Shown: positions 47,305 through 63,720 of the stretch, piece after piece | Numbering within the stretch: the stretch's first letter is position 1 | Layout of the letters: every line of letters starts with the position of its first letter | DNA from: Pseudomonas sp. MYb185 | GTDB taxonomy: Bacteria > Pseudomonadota > Gammaproteobacteria > Pseudomonadales > Pseudomonadaceae | DNA: 64,000 bases | Direction: 5' to 3' | NCBI RefSeq assembly: GCF_002979975.1 | Contig: NZ_PCQD01000003.1 | Coordinates: forward strand, 1 to 64,000 | Translations under genes and position numbers: made by a program | Notes under the pieces: model-generated | What the model saw: the letters and a program-made list of their open reading frames with translations, nothing else | What the model was told of the DNA's origin: nothing | Database searches by the model: none

Positions 47305-48252
47305 ATGATCAAAGCAACCACCTGGCGCTATGCGCTATTCCTGCTGGCCGGTCTCGCCAGCCTCGGCGCACTGGCCGAGGCGCGCCAGGTCGAAGACGCC
47401 ATGGGCAACCAGATCATGGTCCCGGACCAGCCGCAACGTATCGTCACCCTCAGCGAGGTGGATCTGGACGTAGCGCTGGCGCTGGGGATCACTCCGGTGG
47501 GCACCACCGACGGTCGCGGCCAGACCGCACCGCCACGCTATCTGCAGGGGCGGCTCACCGAACAGACCCGTTCCCTCGGGCTGCTGGCCAATCCCAACCT
47601 GGAAACCCTGCTCGAGCTCGAACCGGATCTGATCCTCACCGGCCCGGTCACTCCCGAGCAACTGGCCATTCTGAACGAGATAGCCCCGACAGCAGTGTCC
47701 TACACCCAGGGCGAACCCTGGCGGGACTCCACCCTGCGGGTGGCCAATATCCTCAACCAGGAAGCCGAGGGCCAGCAATTACTGGAGCGCTATGAAGAGC
47801 GGGCCGCCCAGGGCCGCGAACGGCTCAAGGAGCATCAGGGCGAGAGCATCAGCATCGTGCGCTGGAACCCCAAGGGGCCGGCCTTCATGCTGCGTGACTC
47901 CTTCGCCAGCACCATTGCCAAGGACCTTGGCCTGGTCCGGCCACCCCAGCAGCAGCAACCCGGCCCGACCCACTCCATGCCGTTGAGCCTGGAATCACTG
48001 GACGTGCTCGATGGAGACTGGATGGTAATCGGTACCCTGGCGCCGGTCGGCGAGGCCGTGGATGCCCTGCGCCAGGCCGAGAAAACACCCATGTATCAAC
48101 AGCTCGGCGCCATCAAGAGCGGCCATTACCATGCAGTGGATGGCTCCGTATGGACTTCCTCCTTTGGCCCGCTGGCGGCAGAGCAGGTCATCGAGGATAT
48201 AGAAATACTGATCCTCGGCGACCAGGCGCAGGTTGCCAAAGCCAACCAGTGA
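47305..48252 (+). CDS. Iron-siderophore ABC transporter substrate-binding protein
   Basis: 315 residues: signal peptide (to about residue 24, LGALAEA) and a class III binding-protein fold (PeriBP/FecB family), with PQRIVTLSEVDLDVALALGITPVG and LELEPDLILTGP as marks. It captures the ferric siderophore in the periplasm and delivers it to the FecCD pair. ATG 47305 follows AGGA; an upstream in-frame ATG at 47230 lies inside the Fur box and is unlikely. Confidence 0.9.
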   Translation: MIKATTWRYALFLLAGLASLGALAEARQVEDAMGNQIMVPDQPQRIVTLSEVDLDVALALGITPVGTTDGRGQTAPPRYLQGRLTEQTRSLGLLANPNLETLLELEPDLILTGPVTPEQLAILNEIAPTAVSYTQGEPWRDSTLRVANILNQEAEGQQLLERYEERAAQGRERLKEHQGESISIVRWNPKGPAFMLRDSFASTIAKDLGLVRPPQQQQPGPTHSMPLSLESLDVLDGDWMVIGTLAPVGEAVDALRQAEKTPMYQQLGAIKSGHYHAVDGSVWTSSFGPLAAEQVIEDIEILILGDQAQVAKANQ

Positions 48253-48690
48253 CGTCGGGTTGTCGCGCCCCTGCGCGACGACAGGGCCGGGGCTGCGGCA
48301 GGCCGCTTGGCGTAGCGCCCGAACGCGGACCGGGGCGCTACACCCCAAACAGCACGATGCCGCAGCCGGCTAGCCGGGCGAGGCCACTGACAGCAGGCAG
48401 GTTATCGGGTGACGTCGGGTTGTCGCGCCCCTGCGCGATGCAGGGCCGGAGCTGCGGCAGACCGCTTGGCGTAGCGCCCGAACGCGGACCGGGGCGCTAC
48501 ACCCCAAACAGCACGATGCCGCAGCCGGCTAGCCGGGCGAGGCCACTGACAGCAGGCAGGTTATCGGGTGACGTCGGGTTGTCGCGCCCCTGCGCGACGA
48601 CAGGGCCGGGGCTGTGGCAGACCGCTTGGCGCAGCGCCCGAACGCGGACCGGGGCGCTACATCCCGGAAAGATCGGCTAGCCGGGCGCGA
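48250..48690. repeat. 160-bp tandem repeat, about 2.7 copies
   Basis: Units start at 48250, 48410 and 48569 (each beginning TGACGTCGGGTTGTCGC). The first two are 160 and 159 bases and nearly identical, with a one-base indel; the third is truncated and more diverged. Each unit contains GTAGCGC...GCGCTAC and a GCCGGCTAGCCGGGC palindrome, so the array is built from REP-like blocks. It fills the gap between the convergent binding-protein and adenylation genes. No gene or spacer-like insert is seen in it. Confidence 0.9.
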
Positions 48691-52150: not shown

Positions 52151-52345
52151 GAGCTTTGCAGATGGTGGAGGTCTTTATCTGGTAGTGCCTAAAGCCGGTC
52201 GGGCTTATTGGAGGCTGCACTCAAGATGAAGCAACACCGTGAAGGCATCGATCCTCTTGTCGCAAAACCACGGGCCAAGCACGACTCCATTCGCAGCGTG
52301 GATGACCTGTTTGCAGACTGGCATGAAGGCACAACATTTTCAGCG
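52151..52345 (+). pseudogene. P4-type tyrosine integrase remnant
   Basis: Frame 52152-52225 reads SFADGGGLYLVVPKAGRAYWRLHSR, the DUF4102 arm-binding start of P4-family integrases, ending at TGA. The next frame (from about 52226) continues with KQHREGIDPLVAKPRAKHDSIRSVDDLFADWHEG, the linker that follows in such integrases. The catalytic tyrosine recombinase domain is absent. This is a doubly broken stump of an integrated element; no tRNA target is visible beside it. Confidence 0.65.
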
Positions 52346-52642
52346 CCCCTGCAGATGCTCCGTTGGCACCATCCGCTGATGCAGCATAGCAAATATCACT
52401 AGCTGCTTCTTTTCCAACCGGTAGTAGAGCATGTGACTACCATACGGAAAACTGAACACCCCTTCACCCACATCCAGCCTGACCAACCCCTGACCGGGAA
52501 ACTCGGCTAATAGCTCCATGGCTTCCCTCGCGCCCTGCAGGTACTTTCTGGATTGCTCCTGCCCCCAGGTATTCACTGTATAACGGCGGATAGCCTTCAG
52601 GTCTTGTTGTGCATCACGTGTTAAACGAAAGCCAAACGCCAT
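52340..52642 (-). CDS. RelE/ParE-family toxin
   Basis: 100 residues, small and basic. The start MAFGFRLTRDAQQDLKAIRRYTVNTWGQEQSRKYLQ and the end HMLYYRLEKKQLVIFAMLHQRMVP are characteristic of ParE, which poisons DNA gyrase in several systems. Its ATG overlaps the last base of the antitoxin stop, so expression is coupled. Looks intact. Confidence 0.9.
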   Translation of the reverse strand: MAFGFRLTRDAQQDLKAIRRYTVNTWGQEQSRKYLQGAREAMELLAEFPGQGLVRLDVGEGVFSFPYGSHMLYYRLEKKQLVIFAMLHQRMVPTEHLQGR

Positions 52643-52908
52643 CAGTCATCGCTTCCCTGCAGCAACTGATCAAAGAACTCCCCGCCATCAATTGTCTCTC
52701 CAGCCGCAATCTGCTCCTTGGCGCGCTCCGCTCTCAGCTGTAGCAGCTCCAGCTTCAATTCCTCACTGCTGACATAGTCCTCAGCTGCAACCAGTACTGC
52801 CACCGGCTTGCCATGCTTGCTGATGTGTACCGGCTCTCGCTGAGCCTTCAGCAACACCTCACCAAACCGAGCTTTTGCTTCGTTCGCTGTCATTAGGTTC
52901 ATGGCCAT
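52642..52908 (-). CDS. Phd/YefM-family antitoxin
   Basis: 88 residues. MTANEAKARFGEVLLKAQREPVHISKHGKPVAVLVAAEDY is the Phd/YefM DNA-binding dimer; the C-terminal tail (GETIDGGEFFDQLLQG) is the flexible toxin-binding part. It autorepresses the operon and neutralises the ParE-like protein. A pairing of Phd-type antitoxin with ParE-type toxin is known elsewhere. Three near ATG codons leave the exact start open. Confidence 0.9.
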   Translation of the reverse strand: MAMNLMTANEAKARFGEVLLKAQREPVHISKHGKPVAVLVAAEDYVSSEELKLELLQLRAERAKEQIAAGETIDGGEFFDQLLQGSDD

Positions 52909-53151: not shown

Positions 53152-56100
53152 TCAGGCCTGCTCCAGCACCACCACCCGCTGACCAGCGCGAACCGGCGAG
53201 CCCGGTTGCACATGCACCTCGCGCACCACGCCGGCACAGGGTGCGGTCAGCGGAATTTCCATCTTCATCGACTCGAGGATGACCAGCACATCCCCCGCCT
53301 CGACCTGCGCGCCGGCTTGTACCTGAACCTGCCAGAGATTCCCGGCGATATGGCTTTCGATGCTGTACTGCCCGCTCGCCAGCGGCTTGTCCTCGCTCTG
53401 CTCGGGTGCCGCTTCCTCGCTTTCGTAGTTCGCCTGGCCGGACTCGATCCAGCGCTGGCGCTCGGCGGCGAAGGCAGCGCGTTGCTGATGGCGGAAGCTG
53501 GCAATGCCTTCCGCCTCGCGTTCGAGGAAGGCCTGGTAATCCGCCAGGCACAACTCGCTCTGCTCGATGGCCAGCTCGAACCGGCCCAGCGGGAAGTCGC
53601 GCCGGATGCGCAGCAGTTCTTCGGCCGAGACCGGGTAGAAGCGGATCTGGTCGAAGAAGCGTAACAGCCAGGGCTTGCCGGCAAAGGCCGCGACATCGCG
53701 GTAGCGGTTCCACATCTGCAGGGTACGACCGACGAACTGGTAGCCCCCGGGGCCTTCCATACCGTATACACACATGTAGGCGCCGCCGATGCCCACCGAG
53801 TTCTCCGCGGTCCAGGTGCGCGCCGGGTTGTACTTGGTGGTCACCAGGCGGTGCCGCGGGTCCAGTGGGGTTGCCACTGGCGCACCGAGATAGACATCGC
53901 CCAGCCCCATCACCAGATAGCTGGCGGCGAAGACCGTGCGCTGTACCTCATCCAGGTTCGGCAGGTCGTTGATGCGGCGGATGAACTCCAGGTTGCTGGG
54001 GCACCAGGGGGCGTCCCTGCGCACCGTGGTCATGTATTTCTCGATCGCCAGCTGGCAGGCAGGATCGTCCCACGACAGGGGCAGATGAACGATACGCGAC
54101 GGCACCTTGAGGTCGCTGGTGGCGCACACCCGATCCCAGAGAGCGGTGATGCTATCCAGCAGCGTCGCCAGCGGCAGCCTTTCCGGTTGATAGTGCACCT
54201 GCAGCGAGCGGATGCCCGGGGTGAGGTCAATGACACCCGCCAGGCCTTCGTTCTCCAGGGCCTGCATCAGCGCATGCCCACGGAATCGCAGCACCAGGTC
54301 GAGCTCCGCCGCACCTATCTCCAGCAATAGGTGAGTATCCCCCGACAGGCGCGCCACCAGGCGCTTGTCGGCCTCGCCGATATCGAGCACGATCGGCGAA
54401 GTCAGTGTCGGCACCACCGGTTTCACTGAGACCGGTACCGCAGGCGCGACCAGGCTGGCGCATTCCTGGTTGAGCGCCTGCGCCAGCTGGCGGGCAGTAT
54501 CGATCTCGACAGCGACAAAGCGCACCCTGTCACCGGCCTTGAGCTGGCCGAGCTGCCAGAGGTCGGCCTCGATGATGGTCACCGGACAGACGAAACCACC
54601 CAGGCTCGGGCCATCCGGGCCGAGAATCACCGGCATGTCACCGGTGAAGTCCACGGCACCGATGGCGTAGGGGTTGTCATGGATGTTGGAGGGGTGCAGC
54701 CCGGCTTCGCCGCCGCTGTCACGCACCCATTCGGGTTTTGGCCCGATCAGCCGGACACCCGTGCGGCTGGAGTTGAAGTGCACCTCCCAGTCGGTAGCGA
54801 AGAAGGTCTGGATATAGCCCTCGGTAAAGTATTCCGGCGCGCCGTGCGGCCCATAGATCACCCGGATCTCGCGCACCTCGGCCAGATCACTGTATTGCGC
54901 CGGCAACAGGCTCGCGCCATGGCTGGCGTCCTCCAGCCGGGGCAGATGCAGTACATCCCCGGCGCGCAGGGCACGGCCACCGTGGCCGCCGAACTGACCA
55001 AGGGTAAAGGTGCTCTTGCTGCCGAGATAATCCGGCACCACCACCCCTCCCCGCACACACAGGTAACTCCGCGCGCCAGCGCCGGCAATGCTGCCGCAGC
55101 TGAGTGTGCTGCCGGCCTTGACCAGAATGGCAGTCGCCATCGGCTGCTCGACCTCGTCGATCTTCAACCCGATGACGGCGCCGGTCACCGCAACCACCGC
55201 ATCGGTATTGAACCGCAGCACAGGCCCGCTCATGGTGATTTCCACGGCCGCCGCGCCCTCGGGATTGCCAAGCAAGCGGTTGCCCAGGCGCAGCGCACGG
55301 CTGTCCATTGGACCAGAGGGTGGCACGCCCACAGCCCAGTAACCCAGGCGACCAGGAAAATCCTGCACGGTGCTCTGCGTACCCGCACTCAGCACCTCGA
55401 CCGTGTCTGCCCGATAGACCATCTGCTCCAGGCAACGGGTCCAGGGTTCACCGCTGGCGAAGGGGGTGGCATGGAGAATCTGCCGCAGGTAGTCGCGATT
55501 GCATTCCACGCCGTACAGCAGGGTCTCCTGCAGCGCTTCGCCCAGTGCCTGTCTGGCGGCTTCCCGGTCTGGCGCCCAGCTGATGACCTTGGCAATCATC
55601 GGATCGAACCAGGCCGGTATCTCGCACCCGCTTTCGACCCAGGTATCGATGCGCAGCTGTTTGCCGTCAGCCGGGGGGAACGCCACTGCCGTCAGCAGGC
55701 CCGGACTCGGTTGGAAGTCGCGGCCCGGGTCCTCTGCATAGACGCGCGCCTGAATCGCATGCCCCTGGGGGGCGAGCGCCGCGGCCAGTTCGGTCAGGGG
55801 CGGCAGCTCTCCGGCGGCAAGCTCGACCATCCAGCGCACCAGATCCACGCCCCAGACCTGTTCGGTTACGCCGTGCTCTACCTGCAGACGGGTATTCACT
55901 TCCAGAAAATAGAACTGCTCGGCCTCGCTGTCGTAAACGAATTCCACGGTCCCGGCGCTGCGGTACCGCACCGCCCTGGTCAGCTTGATTGCAGCGGCGC
56001 AGAGTGCCTCGGCCATGCCGGTCGGCAGGTTGGGTGCCGGCGTCTCCTCCAGCACCTTCTGATTGCGCCGCTGCACCGAGCAATCGCGCACGCCCAACGC

Positions 56101-56763
56101 CAGCACTTCACCGTTGCCGTCGCCGAATACCTGGACTTCAAGGTGACGGGCGCGCTGTATGTATTTTTCGATGAATACGCCTGAATCGCTGAAGTTGTTC
56201 TGCCCCAACCGCTTGACCGCCTCGAACGCATCGGCCAGCTCCTGCGCGCTGTTGCAGACACGCATGCCGATCCCGCCGCCGCCAGCGGTGCTCTTGAGCA
56301 TCACCGGGTAGCCGACCTGTTCGCCGGCCTGCAGTGCGGCGTCGATATTCTCCAGCAAGCCGGTGCCTTCCAGCATCGGGATGCCATGTTCCCTGGCCAG
56401 GGCACGCGCGGTGTGCTTCAGGCCGAACAGTCGCAGCTGTTCGGGCGTGGGGCCGACGAAGGCAATCCCGGCCGCTTCGCAGGCTTCGGCAAAGGCGGCA
56501 TTCTCGGACAGAAAGCCGTAGCCCGGGTGAATGGCTCCGGCGCCGGTGGTGCGGGCGATATCCAGGATCTTGTCTACTGCCAGATAGGTCTGGCTCGCCG
56601 CTCCTTCACCGAGACCGTATGCCTCGTCCGCCTGGGATATATGCAGACTGGTGGCATCGGCGTCGGCATACACGGCGACGCTTCCGACATCGAGCGTGCG
56701 CAGTGTGCGCAGGATGCGGCAGGCAATGGCACCACGGTTGGCGATCAGCAGTTTGTCGAACAT
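53152..56763 (-). CDS. Biotin-dependent urea/guanidine carboxylase
   Basis: 1203 residues. Residues 1-450 are biotin carboxylase (LLIANRGAIACRILRTLR, GGGGIGMR loop, EVNTRLQVEHGVTEQVWGVD). Residues about 455-1050 are the KipA/KipI-type carboxyltransferase half (AGTQSTVQDFPGRLGYWAVGVPPSGPMD). The C terminus is a biotin carrier domain with Lys1168 in ESMKME. Annotated families call this urea carboxylase, but with a guanidine riboswitch and the two DUF1989 partners it is most likely guanidine carboxylase, making carboxyguanidine. No allophanate hydrolase is fused or follows. 97 bases separate it from the upstream gene. Confidence 0.93.
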   Translation of the reverse strand: MFDKLLIANRGAIACRILRTLRTLDVGSVAVYADADATSLHISQADEAYGLGEGAASQTYLAVDKILDIARTTGAGAIHPGYGFLSENAAFAEACEAAGIAFVGPTPEQLRLFGLKHTARALAREHGIPMLEGTGLLENIDAALQAGEQVGYPVMLKSTAGGGGIGMRVCNSAQELADAFEAVKRLGQNNFSDSGVFIEKYIQRARHLEVQVFGDGNGEVLALGVRDCSVQRRNQKVLEETPAPNLPTGMAEALCAAAIKLTRAVRYRSAGTVEFVYDSEAEQFYFLEVNTRLQVEHGVTEQVWGVDLVRWMVELAAGELPPLTELAAALAPQGHAIQARVYAEDPGRDFQPSPGLLTAVAFPPADGKQLRIDTWVESGCEIPAWFDPMIAKVISWAPDREAARQALGEALQETLLYGVECNRDYLRQILHATPFASGEPWTRCLEQMVYRADTVEVLSAGTQSTVQDFPGRLGYWAVGVPPSGPMDSRALRLGNRLLGNPEGAAAVEITMSGPVLRFNTDAVVAVTGAVIGLKIDEVEQPMATAILVKAGSTLSCGSIAGAGARSYLCVRGGVVVPDYLGSKSTFTLGQFGGHGGRALRAGDVLHLPRLEDASHGASLLPAQYSDLAEVREIRVIYGPHGAPEYFTEGYIQTFFATDWEVHFNSSRTGVRLIGPKPEWVRDSGGEAGLHPSNIHDNPYAIGAVDFTGDMPVILGPDGPSLGGFVCPVTIIEADLWQLGQLKAGDRVRFVAVEIDTARQLAQALNQECASLVAPAVPVSVKPVVPTLTSPIVLDIGEADKRLVARLSGDTHLLLEIGAAELDLVLRFRGHALMQALENEGLAGVIDLTPGIRSLQVHYQPERLPLATLLDSITALWDRVCATSDLKVPSRIVHLPLSWDDPACQLAIEKYMTTVRRDAPWCPSNLEFIRRINDLPNLDEVQRTVFAASYLVMGLGDVYLGAPVATPLDPRHRLVTTKYNPARTWTAENSVGIGGAYMCVYGMEGPGGYQFVGRTLQMWNRYRDVAAFAGKPWLLRFFDQIRFYPVSAEELLRIRRDFPLGRFELAIEQSELCLADYQAFLEREAEGIASFRHQQRAAFAAERQRWIESGQANYESEEAAPEQSEDKPLASGQYSIESHIAGNLWQVQVQAGAQVEAGDVLVILESMKMEIPLTAPCAGVVREVHVQPGSPVRAGQRVVVLEQA

Positions 56764-56860
56764 GGCAGTTTTCCCTCGACAGGGTTGGCGGGCCGTCCCG
56801 CTTTTTTCGTCTGCGCCACGGTCGTCCGTGGCTGGTGGTTACACAAGGGAGAGTGCCGAC

Positions 56861-57496
56861 TCAGTCCCACACCAGGACTTCGGCCGGGGTCGGGTTGTAG
56901 GCGTTGCAGGGGTTGTTCAATTGCGGGCAGTTGGAAATCAGCACGATGATGTCCATGTGCGCCAGCAGCTCGACATATTTTCCCGGGGCGGAGATGCCAT
57001 CCTCGAATGTCAGTCCACCCTCGGGCGTCACCGGCACATTCATGAAGAAGTTGATGTTGGCGCCGATGTCGCGCTTGTCCAGGCGGCCGTCACCGAGGGC
57101 GGCACGCAGGAAGTTGTCCCGGCAGCTGTGCATGTAGCGCTTGTCCAGCGCATAACGCACCGTATTGCTCTCCTGCGCACAGGCGCCGCCCAGCGTGTCG
57201 TGCCGGCCGCAGGTATCCGCGACGATGGTCAGCAGTGGATTGCCGAGATTGGAATACAGCACCGTACCGGTGCTGAGGTAGACCCGATTCTGCTGGCGCA
57301 GGGTGCGTTGCGGGTCGAAACGCTCGCGCGGATTGGCGGCGCTGAAGAACAGCGTGTCCACCGCCTGGTTGCCCTCCAGGTCGAGCAGGCGCAATGTCTG
57401 TCCGGCCCTGATCTCGAACAGGTAGGGTTCTCCAGCGGGAATGGTTGCACGAAAGCTGGCTGCTTCCGGCTGTTTCTGGCTTTGCGTCAGTATCAT
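56861..57496 (-). CDS. Urea-amidolyase-associated protein 2 (DUF1989), likely carboxyguanidine deiminase subunit
   Basis: 211 residues, DUF1989 family. [33 protein letters not shown], then [20 protein letters not shown] with conserved Cys/His, and [21 protein letters not shown]. Paired with its sister gene just upstream. In other bacteria the two proteins (CgdA/CgdB) form carboxyguanidine deiminase, turning carboxyguanidine into allophanate and ammonia. ATG 57496 follows GAGGG. Confidence 0.87.
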
Positions 57497-57507
57497 CCTG
57501 GCAGCCC

Positions 57508-58236
57508 TCAGATATACAGTCGTTCGGTGTTGTGGAAACCGCGGCCGTTTTCCGGCCGCGCGGTGCGGCACAGGACGGTAATACCGTCACTGGCGACCTG
57601 CTGCCAGGTCAACAGCACCGGCTTCGGCGCGTACTGCGGATTCGGGTCCATCGGGTGCTGCAGGGCGGTCAGGACCACCAGCGTGTCCATCGGGGCATAC
57701 AACTCGATGTAATCGTTGGCACTGGAGTTACCCGACTCGAACTGGAAGCTCCCCTCGGCATCGACGCTGACCCGGCTGAACAGGTTGAGAGTCATCAGCA
57801 GGTCCTGCTGATTCAGATTCCACTTGCCCATTTCCACCAGCAGGTTGTCATGGCCGTTGCGATGGAAGCCGTTACGCAGCTCCTGATAGCGGCCTTGGCC
57901 ATACTTTTCCTCGACCTCCCGGGCATTGAGCACGCCACCTAAGCTGTCATGCCAGCCGCAGGTATCGGCGGTGATCGCAGCCAGCACGCGGCCCATGTCC
58001 GAATACAGGCAGTGGCCGGCGGTGAGCCGGGCGGTATGCTGGCCCTTGAGGGTGTCGGGCAGACTCAGCCGCTCGCTTTTCTCGTTGGCATTGAGCAGCA
58101 TCAGGCTGACATTGGCCCCGCCCTCGATATCGGTGATCCGTAGCAATTGGCCGCGCTTGAGTACGAAGGAGGTGTGTCCGCCACCAGGGACGGTTTCTTC
58201 GTACAGGGTGGAACGCAGCGCCAGATCGGCATTCAT
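57508..58236 (-). CDS. Urea-amidolyase-associated protein 1 (DUF1989), likely carboxyguanidine deiminase subunit
   Basis: 242 residues of the DUF1989 family: [43 protein letters not shown] and [26 protein letters not shown], plus [20 protein letters not shown]. Shares the Cys-x-His core with its downstream sister. Ten bases after the ATPase gene and eleven before UAAP2, so part of the riboswitch-led operon. Confidence 0.87.
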
Positions 58237-59077: not shown

Positions 59078-59886
59078 TTGGCTCCTTCGTACCAGGGGAA
59101 AGCCAACCGGGTCAGCTGACGCAGGCCGTAATCCATCGACCAGGCCAGCAGGGTGATCCAGGCGACATAGGGAAGAATCACGTCCATCGACATGTAGCGG
59201 CGCCCCAGAAAGATGCGGTAGCCGAGACCGTCGGTAGAGGCGATGGCTTCGGCGGCAATCAGGAACAGCCAGGCCGATCCCAGCACCAGACGCAGGCTGA
59301 TAAGCAGGCGTGGCATCAGTTGTGGCAGCACCACGCGCAGGATCAGCGTCCAGGTATTGGCGCCCAGGGTCTGCGCCTTTACCAGCAGCTCGGTGGGGAT
59401 TTCCCGTGCCCGCTGTTCAAGGTCCCGGGCAATGAGCGGGGTGATGCCAATGACGATGAGCACTATCTTGGATAGCTCGCCGAGGCCAAACACGATGAAC
59501 AGGATCGGTAGCAGGGCCAGTGACGGCACCATGGATAACACCGCCAGCAGCGGCGACAGCGGTGCACTGAACAGTGGCAGGGTGCCGGTGGTCAGGCCCA
59601 GACACAGGGCAAGCAAGGCGCTGATGCCCAGGCCGATGGAGATGCGTTTGAGACTGGACGCGGTATCCTGCCAGAACAGGTAGTCACCACTGCGCCGATC
59701 AGGCTGGAAGGCCAGCCGATCGATCGCCTCCACCATCTGCGAGGGGCTGGGCAACAGTTTGTCATTCGGATTGGCTTCCAGCCGCTTGGCCGAATAGGAC
59801 AGGTAAATCAGCGCCAGCAGCAGGAATGGCAGAAGCAGCAGCGACAAGCGCACCGGCTTGCCGGGTCTGATATTGATCAACCGCAT
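59074..59886 (-). CDS. ABC transporter permease of the guanidine island
   Basis: 270 residues, about six helices, SsuC/TauC-like: the EAA loop is near residue 170 (REIPTELLVKAQTLGANTWTLILRVVLPQLMP). It is the first long gene after the guanidine-I riboswitch. GGGAGGG lies 7 bases before ATG 59886, and a 33-codon upstream frame ends seven bases inside it, so the two may be coupled. The likely substrate is guanidine or a relative. Confidence 0.9.
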   Translation of the reverse strand: MRLINIRPGKPVRLSLLLLPFLLLALIYLSYSAKRLEANPNDKLLPSPSQMVEAIDRLAFQPDRRSGDYLFWQDTASSLKRISIGLGISALLALCLGLTTGTLPLFSAPLSPLLAVLSMVPSLALLPILFIVFGLGELSKIVLIVIGITPLIARDLEQRAREIPTELLVKAQTLGANTWTLILRVVLPQLMPRLLISLRLVLGSAWLFLIAAEAIASTDGLGYRIFLGRRYMSMDVILPYVAWITLLAWSMDYGLRQLTRLAFPWYEGAK

Positions 59887-59978
59887 GGGGCAGCCCTCCC
59901 TGTATCACTGAGGGCAGCAGGGTCCATCGAGGTTCTGAAAAGCGCGGCAGGCAGCGACCGGGTTGCAGAGTGGGACAT
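59877..59978 (-). CDS. Possible 33-residue leader peptide overlapping the permease start
   Basis: ATG 59978 is preceded by GGAGGG at 7 bases and opens a frame (MSHSATRSLPAALFR ...) that stops at TGA 59877, just inside the permease gene. The composition looks non-structural. It lies directly after the guanidine-I aptamer, so its Shine-Dalgarno could be the one that the riboswitch controls, with the permease translated by coupling. No homologue is known to me; it may be chance. Confidence 0.4.
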   Translation of the reverse strand: MSHSATRSLPAALFRTSMDPAALSDTGRAAPCG

Positions 59979-60029
59979 GTAAAACCCTCCAGATTAGGCA
60001 GACGACGGGTAGCTGCGTGTTCATTACGC

Positions 60030-60122
60030 AAATCTCCCGGGCTTTTGTCCCGCCGTGTAACCTCATGGAGGTCGCCAACTCTCGGACCAGCCACTCGCGC
60101 CAGCGAGCCGGAACCCTAGTCA
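60030..60122 (-). promoter_or_regulatory. Guanidine-I riboswitch (ykkC class)
   Basis: On the minus strand the conserved blocks appear in order: CTAGGGTTCCG (from 60119), CTGGTCCGAGAG (about 60090), then an ACCTC-CAT-GAGGT hairpin, CACGGCGGG and GCCCGGGAGA (to 60033). These match the ykkC aptamer consensus closely. It binds guanidinium and turns on guanidine transport and carboxylase genes. The expression platform follows; no classical terminator is clear, so control of ribosome access is likely. Confidence 0.95.
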
Positions 60123-60489
60123 GCTATTTCGATACTGTATTTTCATCCTTGAATCGTAGCTTCCCGCCTTCAAGCCCTAGCAACAGCCATGCCAGCTGAT
60201 CGAGAGGCAGGAGCAAACGCCCTCGCTGCGGTGCGCCAGCCGGTTCTGACGTTGCACTGCGAGCACAGGCATAGGGGGCATCTGAAGGGGAAAACGCACT
60301 ATCGCAGGGCGGCGACGCCCAGAATCGGGGCACGGCTTGCACCATGCCTGACACCGGACACGCCGCGCATTGCCGCAAAGATCAGAGCGATGGGGTCTGC
60401 AGCCTGCTCAGGGGCGACTGGTACGAGTATTGCTTGGCTCCCTGTACCTGCGGTCACCCGGACATCGTGCCCGGCGTCCGCAGGCCTGT
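60123..60489. other. Central region between the two riboswitch leaders
   Basis: About 370 bases, which should hold both divergent promoters. I cannot assign a clear -35/-10 pair on either strand, and I see no gene or remnant that I can name. Confidence 0.5.
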
Positions 60490-60560
60490 TCCGGGACGGC
60501 CCGGGCAGTCTCATGGACAGAGGCCAACCGAAGACTGTAAGGATATCTGGACGACCAGAT
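60490..60560 (+). promoter_or_regulatory. Guanidine-II riboswitch (mini-ykkC class)
   Basis: Two hairpins with ACGR tetraloops: CCGGG-ACGG-CCCGG at 60491-60504 and ATCTGG-ACGA-CCAGAT at 60545-60560. Two such stems joined by a linker of up to about 40 bases define the mini-ykkC class; here the linker is 40. It ends 20 bases before the CCGGAGG ribosome site of the dioxygenase gene, so ligand binding should affect translation start. Confidence 0.85.
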
Positions 60561-60591
60561 GACATCTCGATTATCCAATCCGGAGGTTTTC

Positions 60592-61653
60592 ATGGCGTCA
60601 CAGCAAACCCGTTCCTCTCCTACCCATACGGCATTCAAGACGCTGCCCGTGGTCGATATCTCCGGGCTGGCCTCCAGTGCGATCGCCGAGCGCCGGGCCG
60701 TCGCCCGGGAGCTGGGCGAGGCGGCCAGGCAGGCGGGATTTCTCTATGTCACCGGGCATGGCATCGCGCCCCAGCAGATCGAGCGTCTGCTCGCCCGCAC
60801 CCGGGAATACTTTGCCCAGCCGCGGGAACGCAAGATGCGGGACTATATCGGCAACTCCAGCAACCACAGTGGCTATGTTCCCGAGGGGGAAGAACAGTTC
60901 CAACCCGGCGTGATCGACCACAAGGAAACCTATGACATAGGCTATGACTATCTTCCGAGCCATGGCAGACGACCGATGCTCGGGCCGAACCAATGGCCCA
61001 GCCTGCCGGGTTTCCAGGAAGACATCCGGGCTTACTATGACGCCGCGCTGGCACTGGGGGAGCGCCTGTTCAGAGGCTTCGCACTGGCCCTGGAACTGCC
61101 GGAGGACACCTTCAGCCAGCATCTCAGCGCCCCACCCAGCCAGTTGCGGCTGATCCATTACCCGGCGACGGCCGATATCCAGGTCGACCGGCCGGGCATT
61201 GGCGCCCATACCGACTACGAGTGCTTCACCATCCTGCTGCCAACCGCACCCGGCCTGGAGGTGCTGAACGGCGCAGGGGAGTGGATCGATGTGCCGCTGC
61301 TCGAGGATGCTTTCGTCATCAATATCGGTGACATGCTCGAAGTGCTGAGCAACGGCGCCTATGTTGCGACCGCGCATCGGGTGCGCAAGGTCACCGAAGA
61401 GCGCTACTCCTTTCCGCTGTTCTGCGCCTGCGATTACGACACCCTGATCGAGCCGGTTCCCTCGTTGTTGAGCGAAACCAATCCGCCGCGCTACCAACCG
61501 ATCCGCTGCGGCGACCACCTGTTTGCCCAAACAGCCCAGACCTTCGCTTATCTGAAGAAGCGCGTCGCCGCGGGCGAAGTGTCGCTGCCAGAAGGCGCGC
61601 TCGGCCTGTCCTCATTTGGCCATCAGGCAACAGCCAAGGGAGCCTGCGCATGA
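60592..61653 (+). CDS. 2-oxoglutarate/Fe(II) oxygenase, isopenicillin-N-synthase type
   Basis: 353 residues. The iron triad is H206-x-D208 (GAHTDYE) and H262 (ATAHRVRK), and the 2-oxoglutarate salt bridge is R271-Y-S273. The N-terminal domain (LPVVDISGL, GFLYVTGHGI) is typical of the family. The substrate is unknown. Plant relatives that hydroxylate homoarginine release guanidine, so a guanidine-forming or alkylguanidine-oxidising role is plausible under a guanidine riboswitch. ATG 60592 follows CCGGAGG at 5 bases. Its stop overlaps the next start. Confidence 0.87.
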   Translation: MASQQTRSSPTHTAFKTLPVVDISGLASSAIAERRAVARELGEAARQAGFLYVTGHGIAPQQIERLLARTREYFAQPRERKMRDYIGNSSNHSGYVPEGEEQFQPGVIDHKETYDIGYDYLPSHGRRPMLGPNQWPSLPGFQEDIRAYYDAALALGERLFRGFALALELPEDTFSQHLSAPPSQLRLIHYPATADIQVDRPGIGAHTDYECFTILLPTAPGLEVLNGAGEWIDVPLLEDAFVINIGDMLEVLSNGAYVATAHRVRKVTEERYSFPLFCACDYDTLIEPVPSLLSETNPPRYQPIRCGDHLFAQTAQTFAYLKKRVAAGEVSLPEGALGLSSFGHQATAKGACA

Positions 61654-62591: not shown

Positions 62592-62640
62592 GCCGACGCA
62601 GTACTGCCTTTACCACACTATAACGACCCACGAGGTGCGT

Positions 62641-63720
62641 ATGACAACCTTCAAAGTATCATTCAGACAACTACTGGCCGTTGCCGCTGCCAGCCTGTGC
62701 TTCGCCACCGCCGCCATCGGCGCCGAGAAAAAGGACAGCTTCAAGGTCGCCTGGTCCATCTATGCCGGCTGGATGCCCTGGGCCTACGCCGATGAGTACG
62801 GCATCATCGATAAATGGGCGGACAAGTACGGAATCGATATCGAGATAGTGCAGTTCAACGACTATATCGAGTCGATCAACCAGTACACCACCGGCGCCTT
62901 CGATGCCTGCGCCATGACCAACATGGACGCACTGACCATTCCAGCGGCCAGCGGCGTGGACACCACTGGCCTGATCCTGGGCGACTATTCGAACGGCAAT
63001 GACGCCATTGTGCTGAAGAACGGCAACAGCATGGAGGACCTGCGCGGGCGCCAGGTCAATCTGGTCGAGCTGTCGGTCTCGCACTATCTGCTGGCGCGCG
63101 CCCTGGAGATGAATGGCATGGCCGAGCGCGACGTCCGCGTGATGAACACCTCGGATGCCGACGCCGTGTCGTCGTTCGTGACTCCGGATGTCACCGCCGT
63201 CGCAGTCTGGAATCCGCAGTTGAGCATGATCAAGGCGCAGCATCCCGATGCTGTCTCGGTATTCGACTCCACCCAGATCCCCGGCGAGATCATCGACATG
63301 ATGGCGGTCAACACCAAGACACTGGCGGCCAACCCGGAGCTGGGCAAGGCGCTGGTGGGAGCCTGGTTCGAGACCCTGGAGCTGATGACCGGCGACAGCG
63401 AACAGGCCAGAAGCGCACGCACCTTCATGGCCGAGCGCGCCGGTACCGACCTGGCGGGGTTTGACGCCCAGCTCACGGAAACCATGCTGTTCTACTCGCC
63501 GGCGGACACCTACGCCTTCGCTACCGACTCGGCGCTGCGCCAGACCATGGACAAGGTACGGCTGTTCTCCTTCGACAAGGGCCTGCTGGGCAACGGAGCA
63601 CCCAGTGCCGACGTGATCGGCATGGAGTTCGCCGATGGCTCCACCCTGGGCGATACCGGCAATGTGCAGCTGCGCTTCAACCCCGAGTATGTGCGCATGG
63701 CAATGGACGGGGAGCTCTAG
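62641..63720 (+). CDS. ABC transporter substrate-binding protein (NMT1/SsuA-like)
   Basis: 359 residues: signal peptide (to about residue 27, AAIGA) and a type 2 periplasmic binding fold. FKVAWSIYAGWMPWAYADEYGIIDKWADKYGI and GAFDACAMTNMDALTIPAASGVDTT resemble the urea/guanidine-cluster binding proteins. It should feed the permease/ATPase of the opposite operon, being the only binding protein nearby. ATG 62641 has GAGG upstream; GTG 62635 is also in frame. Confidence 0.9.
   Translation: MTTFKVSFRQLLAVAAASLCFATAAIGAEKKDSFKVAWSIYAGWMPWAYADEYGIIDKWADKYGIDIEIVQFNDYIESINQYTTGAFDACAMTNMDALTIPAASGVDTTGLILGDYSNGNDAIVLKNGNSMEDLRGRQVNLVELSVSHYLLARALEMNGMAERDVRVMNTSDADAVSSFVTPDVTAVAVWNPQLSMIKAQHPDAVSVFDSTQIPGEIIDMMAVNTKTLAANPELGKALVGAWFETLELMTGDSEQARSARTFMAERAGTDLAGFDAQLTETMLFYSPADTYAFATDSALRQTMDKVRLFSFDKGLLGNGAPSADVIGMEFADGSTLGDTGNVQLRFNPEYVRMAMDGEL

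Follow-up and report, generated by a model that had tools for sequence, protein, structure and literature searches.

The stretch of DNA analysed here (64,000 nucleotides (nt) of Pseudomonas sp. MYb185, assembly GCF_002979975.1, contig NZ_PCQD01000003.1, positions 1–64,000; hereafter the window) carries a guanidine island with three riboswitches of two unrelated classes, Guanidine-I (Gd-I, ykkC) and Guanidine-II (Gd-II, mini-ykkC). A Gd-I aptamer heads a minus-strand operon, a separate Gd-II aptamer stands within this operon directly before the carboxylase gene gca, and a pair of plus-strand hairpins, which we file as a Gd-II variant, precedes mgdH, the gene of a predicted methylguanidine hydroxylase. 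We read the island as a system for scavenging nitrogen from guanidine and methylguanidine under the control of all three RNAs, in which the Gd-II variant would render the demethylase arm inducible by methylguanidine. To this reading we assign a probability of about 0.62. The aptamers and their conservation, the third stem at family level and the order of the genes come from the present data; ligand ranges and enzyme activities are transferred from a relative, Vreelandella boliviensis, and we infer the ON direction, the translational control and the feed-forward arrangement.

Riboswitches of the island

The Gd-I aptamer at 60130–60032 on the minus strand is a full-length match to RF00442 (91.5 bits versus a gathering threshold of 63, E 3.4e-15), and the aptamer before gca, at 56833–56789 on the same strand, exceeds the threshold of RF01068, the Gd-II family (44 bits versus 32). 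The plus-strand element comprises two tandem hairpins with ACGR loops and G-C closing pairs, as expected of Gd-II: P1 (TCCGGG-ACGG-CCCGGG, 60490–60505) and P2 ((T)ATCTGG-ACGA-CCAGAT(G), inside 60544–60561). Loops and closing pairs together form the usual GGACGRCC core of validated Gd-II aptamers. The P1–P2 linker of 38 nt falls within the Gd-II range of 7–40 nt, beyond which the linkers of some relatives extend (65 nt in locus L036, 78 nt in L056), and P2 ends 30 nt 5' of the predicted mgdH start codon and about 20 nt 5' of a Shine-Dalgarno (SD) site. The element thus resembles known mini-ykkC RNAs, i.e. two GC-rich ACGR hairpins 5' of a guanidine-related gene, close to its start codon.

The original prediction had placed a ykkC aptamer at 60030–60122 of the minus strand and two ACGR-loop hairpins at 60490–60560 of the plus strand, and both were recovered, with a separation of about 360 rather than 370 nt. 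Its central claim, that the two arms of the island are headed, in divergent orientation, by unrelated classes of guanidine aptamer, was borne out, and the layout recurs in 28 of the 84 loci described below. It counted only two riboswitches and missed the third one, at 56789–56833 on the minus strand. The features of the island are as follows (aa, amino acids; ORF, open reading frame; 2-OG, 2-oxoglutarate):

53152–56763, minus strand: guanidine/urea carboxylase (gca), 1203 aa; TIGR02712 (named urea carboxylase), 1870 bits; predicted guanidine role from context and PMC12508155
56789–56833, minus strand: Gd-II aptamer immediately 5' of the carboxylase gene; RF01068, 44 bits, gathering 32
56861–57571, minus strand: UAAP2-type DUF1989 protein, predicted second cgd subunit, start codon uncertain; TIGR03424 above cut-off, residues 40–235
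57508–58236, minus strand: UAAP1-type DUF1989 protein, predicted carboxyguanidine hydrolase subunit (cgd); TIGR03425 above cut-off, role according to PMC12508155
58247–59077, minus strand: ABC transporter ATPase; PF00005
59074–59886, minus strand: ABC transporter permease; PF00528
59877–59978, minus strand: leader ORF, 33 aa, 3' of Gd-I, its stop overlapping the permease start; from sequence
60032–60130, minus strand: Gd-I (ykkC) aptamer heading the transport/carboxyguanidine/carboxylase operon; RF00442, 91.5 bits, gathering 63
60490–60505, plus strand: Gd-II variant hairpin P1, loop ACGG; sequence, hairpin-pair search, R1 model
60506–60537, plus strand: possible linker stem CAGTCT...AGACTG adjoining P1, with a 20-nt loop in this strain; linker-stem rule
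60544–60561, plus strand: Gd-II variant hairpin P2, loop ACGA; sequence, hairpin-pair search, R1 model
60582–60586, plus strand: SD-like GGAGG of mgdH; from sequence
60592–61653, plus strand: mgdH, 2-OG/Fe(II) dioxygenase, predicted methylguanidine hydroxylase; PF14226, PF03171, context and PMC12508155
61650–62591, plus strand: mgdL, 313 aa, predicted N-(hydroxymethyl)guanidine lyase; D-x-R motif
62635–63720, plus strand: periplasmic substrate-binding protein (SBP) of the presumed (methyl)guanidine importer; TIGR03427 ABC_peri_uca, 525 bits

Conservation of the hairpin pair

The comparison was made in 84 loci (L numbers), namely the window, three further loci of the same genus and the best 80 named contigs among the MgdH matches listed. 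A tandem pair, defined as two ACGR hairpins with stems of at least 4 pairs, closed by G-C and located no more than 250 nt upstream of mgdH, is present in 61 of the 84 loci, versus 2 of 9,759 background windows, each 258 nt long, taken from the same loci. Analysis of P1 and P2 revealed 21 cells altered on both sides of the stem, compared with a mean of 6.3 in shuffles and with none of 500 shuffles as high, with the caveat that related sequences can exceed such shuffles; the signal is lower when partners are slid.

A covariance model built from 30 related mgdH leaders, with the window left out (R1, whose E-values are rough owing to a short calibration), identified 60490–60560 as the best match both in the window (36.9 bits, E 5.1e-9) and in the whole genome (E 3.3e-7; runner-up 20.2 bits). 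The same model gives the Gd-II before gca just 15.4 bits, which indicates that R1 models the mgdH-type leader. Among 198 Pseudomonadaceae genomes, compared by coordinates and with stricter filters that may lose weak matches, R1 matches lie just 5' of all 19 MgdH homologues with at least 62% identity (a set that includes the window and five genomes whose leaders trained R1) and 5' of none of the 25 homologues at 50–61% identity. The latter, more distant paralogues lack a Gd-II leader, sometimes occur in genomes that also possess MgdH, and may differ in substrate.

R1 matches beyond the family are few in a sample of 369 genomes from the class. Under the stricter filters, nine genomes had a match at E of 1e-4 or better, the window's own genome included. 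Two of the other eight matches (L129 and L131) adjoin carboxylase genes, and for the remaining six (L127, L128, L130, L132, L133 and L134) none of the island's eight proteins was matched in the approximately 3 kb examined. Protein homology nonetheless led to pair-bearing mgdH leaders in several other genera. The mgdH of L036, a contig deposited as Halopseudomonas xinjiangensis, is 82% identical to that of the window.

A third stem in the linker

The linker is structured in most mgdH leaders, with weak support in the window itself. A stem of at least 4 pairs, with no upper limit on its loop, was found in 34 of 42 distinct mgdH-leader linkers of at least 15 nt (500 shuffles: mean 7.9, maximum 17), six further distinct linkers below 15 nt being excluded; mgdH leaders with linkers of 9–12 nt show no linker fold. 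The hairpin begins 0–1 nt past P1 and in 29 of the 34 cases leaves 6–8 nt before P2. Its position is constant while its pairs vary: the third pair is G-C in 18 linkers, C-G in 14 and a wobble in two, and the fourth is C-G in 17, U-A in nine, G-C in six and another pair in two. With folding energy as the sole criterion, 13 of 42 linkers are more stable than shuffled versions (p<0.05; mean z -1.49), and the linker of the window does not surpass its own shuffled versions in stability (z -1.0, p 0.18); the shuffles used for the linker-stem, folding-energy and SD pairing tests preserve base content and not dinucleotides. In the window's genus, three leaders with linkers of 26–31 nt (L018, L066, L071) possess the stem. 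The Gd-II linker has been described as flexible, 7–40 nt in length, in the accessible part of PMC7544219; most mgdH leaders differ in carrying a stem that adjoins P1.

Three-stem Gd-II leaders were also observed 5' of a relative of the binding protein (57–61% identity) in three loci of the same genus (L116, L117 and L118), in the last of which a 184-aa ORF lies between the leader and the binding-protein gene.

Perhaps the mgdH leaders constitute a distinct three-stem Gd-II subclass, in which the P1-adjoining stem would tune the sensor to methylguanidine, and the island would join a sensor of the substrate (variant Gd-II) to one of the product (Gd-I), back to back, in a feed-forward circuit of two unrelated RNAs? 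We consider this stronger version doubtful.

Recurrence of the divergent layout

A Gd-I aptamer facing away from mgdH lies at most 1.5 kb upstream of it in 29 of the 84 loci, in 28 of them jointly with a Gd-II pair; these 28 loci represent 16 distinct leader sequences. The layout was found in Halopseudomonas, Pseudomonas, Variovorax, Microbulbifer and Alkanindiges, as well as on an unplaced betaproteobacterial contig.

Across the 84 loci the two classes are split by gene. The 81 Gd-I calls, which come from a motif pattern and not from Rfam, lead SBP (43), permease (22) and cgd genes (13), mgdH (1) or other genes (2), and the 91 Gd-II pair calls, of which some leaders hold more than one, lead mgdH (63), gca (25) or other genes (3); mgdH is over-represented in these counts, as the loci were gathered through MgdH homology. 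In the loci examined, importer and carboxyguanidine operons are thus served by Gd-I, and carboxylase and demethylase genes by Gd-II. Rfam finds Gd-I over threshold in 36 of the 38 genomes of the set searched. The original prediction had assigned the whole carboxylase/transport arm to Gd-I, which indeed heads the operon, but a Gd-II also directly precedes the carboxylase gene; the other arm was correctly foreseen as one of an oxygenase and a binding protein, represented on the plus strand by the PF14226/PF03171 dioxygenase and the TIGR03427 protein.

The islands of twelve Pseudomonas loci (L079, L081, L083–L086, L089–L092, L094, L095) contain five riboswitches within approximately 10 kb, three of class Gd-I and two of class Gd-II. 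An ordinary Gd-II (37.8 bits; G000:C5:43092-43135, locus L005) was observed 5' of a 105-aa protein which, judged by eye, resembles the small transporter SugE/Gdx.

Relation to known systems and proposed mechanism

The closest system described so far is the guanidine operon of V. boliviensis, for which Sinn et al. (2025; PMC12508155, accessible text) identified the dioxygenase as methylguanidine hydroxylase MgdH and MgdL as N-(hydroxymethyl)guanidine lyase with the catalytic residues D49 and R51. Like the window, this operon contains an ABC importer, cgdA/B, gca, mgdH and mgdL, with Gd-I at its start and Gd-II before gca. Unlike in the window, the genes there make up a single operon, with mgdH and mgdL placed between gca and atzF, and the accessible text describes no Gd-II of their own. 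In the window, mgdH, mgdL and the SBP gene constitute a divergent arm preceded by a Gd-II-type leader of its own, and allophanate hydrolase is encoded on another contig. The statement in the original prediction that no case of classes I and II serving one system had been described was too strong, as both occur in this published operon, which includes mgdH and mgdL. The divergent form, an mgdH-leader Gd-II and a linker stem found no account in the open-licence literature searched, to which the Gd-II discovery alignments do not belong. The new elements here are the divergent mgdHL arm with its own Gd-II-type leader, its recurrence in 28 of 84 loci, the class-by-gene split and the third stem in the linkers of most mgdH leaders. 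Tandem riboswitches likewise provide several aptamers per pathway; here they stand 5' of different genes and are not stacked in one leader, and the accessible part of a review of such arrangements (PMC9481103) reports no tandem involving any guanidine class.

According to the same V. boliviensis study (PMC12508155), Gd-I binds guanidine with an apparent KD of 44 uM and does not bind methylguanidine at 0.005–1 mM. Both compounds are bound by the Gd-II before gca, with KD values of 93 uM for guanidine and 83 uM for methylguanidine. Crystal structures of Gd-II, as far as given in the accessible text of PMC5486947, show an open side of the pocket that accommodates a methyl group, with methylguanidine bound. 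The loops of the plus-strand aptamer are the same as those of known Gd-II, hence this element, too, would be expected to sense both compounds. Since Gd-II accepts methylguanidine and Gd-I refuses it, a separate Gd-II for the demethylase arm would let methylguanidine induce its own demethylation. The 'threshold or logic' by which the original prediction supposed the two arms to differ may well be this ligand range, to judge from the accessible V. boliviensis data (PMC12508155).

The proposed mechanism is as follows. Gd-I would open the minus-strand operon of import, carboxyguanidine hydrolysis and carboxylation in response to guanidine and, as in the relative studied, not to methylguanidine, with the separate Gd-II acting directly before the carboxylase gene. 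Binding of guanidinium or methylguanidinium would make the P1 and P2 loops kiss, and the plus-strand genes (mgdH, mgdL, SBP) would then probably be switched on at the level of translation. Methylguanidine could in this way induce its own conversion to guanidine via the Gd-II-led demethylase arm, and the guanidine so formed would then induce the Gd-I arm.

Predicted proteins and other features

The metal-binding H-x-D motif of MgdH is present, as the pattern H[TC]D, in all 84 homologues. MgdL found no match in Pfam or NCBIfam profile searches, and no solved structure matched it at E of 1 or better. Its D-x-R motif, assigned by pattern and without alignment to the V. boliviensis protein, corresponds to D55 and R57 in the window and is retained wherever MgdL was matched, in 66 of 66 such loci among the 84. 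MgdL relatives (33–37% identity) were noticed on Novosphingobium and Acinetobacter plasmids (NZ_CP140001.1, NC_015583.1 and NZ_CP015595.1), and in two of these three plasmids the match falls in an annotated 2OG-Fe(II) oxygenase. The allophanate hydrolase gene, i.e. the final step of the pathway, was identified on contig G000:C1 with 843.7 bits.

In addition to the full-length Gd-I, the window has the 33-aa ORF (59877–59978, minus strand) between aptamer and permease, preceded by a strong SD-like site. A stop/start overlap of a 29–37-aa ORF with the gene was found in nine of the 22 permease-leading Gd-I calls (the window, L012, L036, L038, L039, L058, L072, L078 and L080), the other 13 having ORFs of 24–44 aa with the stop 10 or 40 nt 5' of the matched start; none of the SBP-leading Gd-I calls shows the overlap. 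The leader ORF overlapping the permease start may provide translational coupling. The fold of the Gd-I leader is unremarkable (z 0.39), and a scan of 59860–60640 placed no terminator-like site between the aptamer and the permease gene. In 12 Burkholderiaceae loci (L096, L099, L101, L103–L105, L107–L110, L112, L113) a conserved 37-aa ORF starts 7 nt past the Gd-I pattern. Elsewhere in the window, two small neighbouring ORFs at 52340–52908 of the minus strand resemble, by eye, a toxin-antitoxin pair of ParE/RelE and Phd/YefM type, and a repeated block in an ORF translation at 48150–48680 suggests a DNA repeat.

Points against the proposal and alternative explanations

Several observations weigh against our reading. 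RF01068 gives the plus-strand pair 18.4 bits (E 2.2, at 60456–60504, with P2 unused), which is below the gathering threshold of 32. The pair is missing from 23 of the 84 loci, all of them 58–64% identical in MgdH, and the identity boundary, sharp in the Pseudomonadaceae set, is blurred outside of it, where the pair is present at 59% (L093) and 58% (L098) and absent at 64% (L055), 63% (L075) and 62% (L076). Eight of the 42 linkers fail the stem rule, including five of the seven long ones (37–65 nt) of the window's genus (L009, L012, L037, L038 and L039 fail; the window and L036 pass). One mgdH lies directly 3' of a Gd-I, so the use of the classes is not fixed. The R-x-S motif is a 2-OG-binding feature of the dioxygenase fold. 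The pattern used for it was matched in only 51 of the 84 MgdH homologues; the window's protein contains ERYSF.

The expression platform belongs to the same list. The scan of 59860–60640 found no promoter-like and one terminator-like site, within chance. Sequestration of the SD region by P2 or its flank as a family-wide mechanism was rejected after three tests without a common signal: pairing of the SD region with the 3' strand of P2 was significant (p<0.05) in 6 of 35 leaders, the predicted SD accessibility in 49 leaders was nearly unchanged (on average 0.29 when the aptamer was forced and 0.24 when P2 was blocked), and the anti-SD pairing energy in 52 leaders had a mean z of -0.27. A Gd-II with a putative anti-SD is mentioned in the accessible part of PMC9094411. 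In the window, base pairing is possible between the start-codon region and the loop and 3' strand of P2 (-10.6 kcal/mol, z -2.0); similar pairing is seen in several leaders of the genus, and a switch of the SD region is plausible in some of them. For mgdH, the sequence speaks for translational control solely through the position of the pair.

Could the plus-strand pair be simply an ordinary Gd-II, with a neutral insert for a linker stem, guanidine as the relevant ligand, and a divergent layout that is just a rearranged V. boliviensis operon without special logic? This is the most serious competitor, to which we would give about half the credence of our own proposal. It agrees with the usual GGACGRCC core, with the linkers of 9–12 nt that have no fold, with the same gene set forming one operon in V. 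boliviensis (PMC12508155, accessible text) and with one mgdH leader that passes the RF01068 threshold (L049, 33.0 bits). This leader was the single one to pass among 34 with the pair before mgdH, in a search of 38 genomes mapped by coordinates; the other 33 have no over-threshold match on the pair. A 30.5-bit match in L090 overlaps P1 and extends upstream, missing P2, and among the mgdH leaders of 14 loci scanned more permissively the highest score was 22.6 bits. Because the model threshold is not reached, we class the window's element as a Gd-II variant and not as a member of RF01068. In the covariance-model check advocated in the original prediction, Gd-I was over threshold and the pair below that of RF01068 (18.4 versus 32), so that under the refuting condition stated there the pair fails with the Rfam model; R1 detects it at 36.9 bits. 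An ordinary Gd-II with a neutral insert is harder to reconcile with a linker stem that holds its position as its sequence varies (34 of 42, shuffle mean 7.9, maximum 17) and with the split of the classes by gene. Carboxylase leaders lack the stem (none of 6 distinct linkers of at least 15 nt, none of 15 of at least 13 nt), but this says little, as their linkers of 5–16 nt are mostly too short for a stem and make a poor control.

It is very improbable that the hairpins are a protein-binding or RNA-stability element instead of a riboswitch; the missing Rfam call and the unclear expression platform would suit such an element, but both hairpins have loops and closing pairs identical to those of validated Gd-II aptamers and the pair accompanies guanidine genes in several genera. 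GC-rich inverted repeats that arose by chance or convergence can practically be dismissed: single GGACGRCC words are near chance in the GC-rich window (10 versus 7.25 expected) and were rejected as proof of a pair, but the 61 of 84 loci versus 2 of 9,759 background windows, the top rank in the genome with a model blind to the window and the covariation all speak against them.

Implications

The preferred reading, a guanidine and methylguanidine island read by three riboswitches, would offer a natural test of why bacteria retain several unrelated guanidine riboswitches. In the loci examined, the split of the classes by gene agrees with the ligand ranges that were measured for a relative. The island also adds a recurrent leader type that is mostly uncalled by the standard RNA library, and a structured linker to a riboswitch whose linker was described as flexible.

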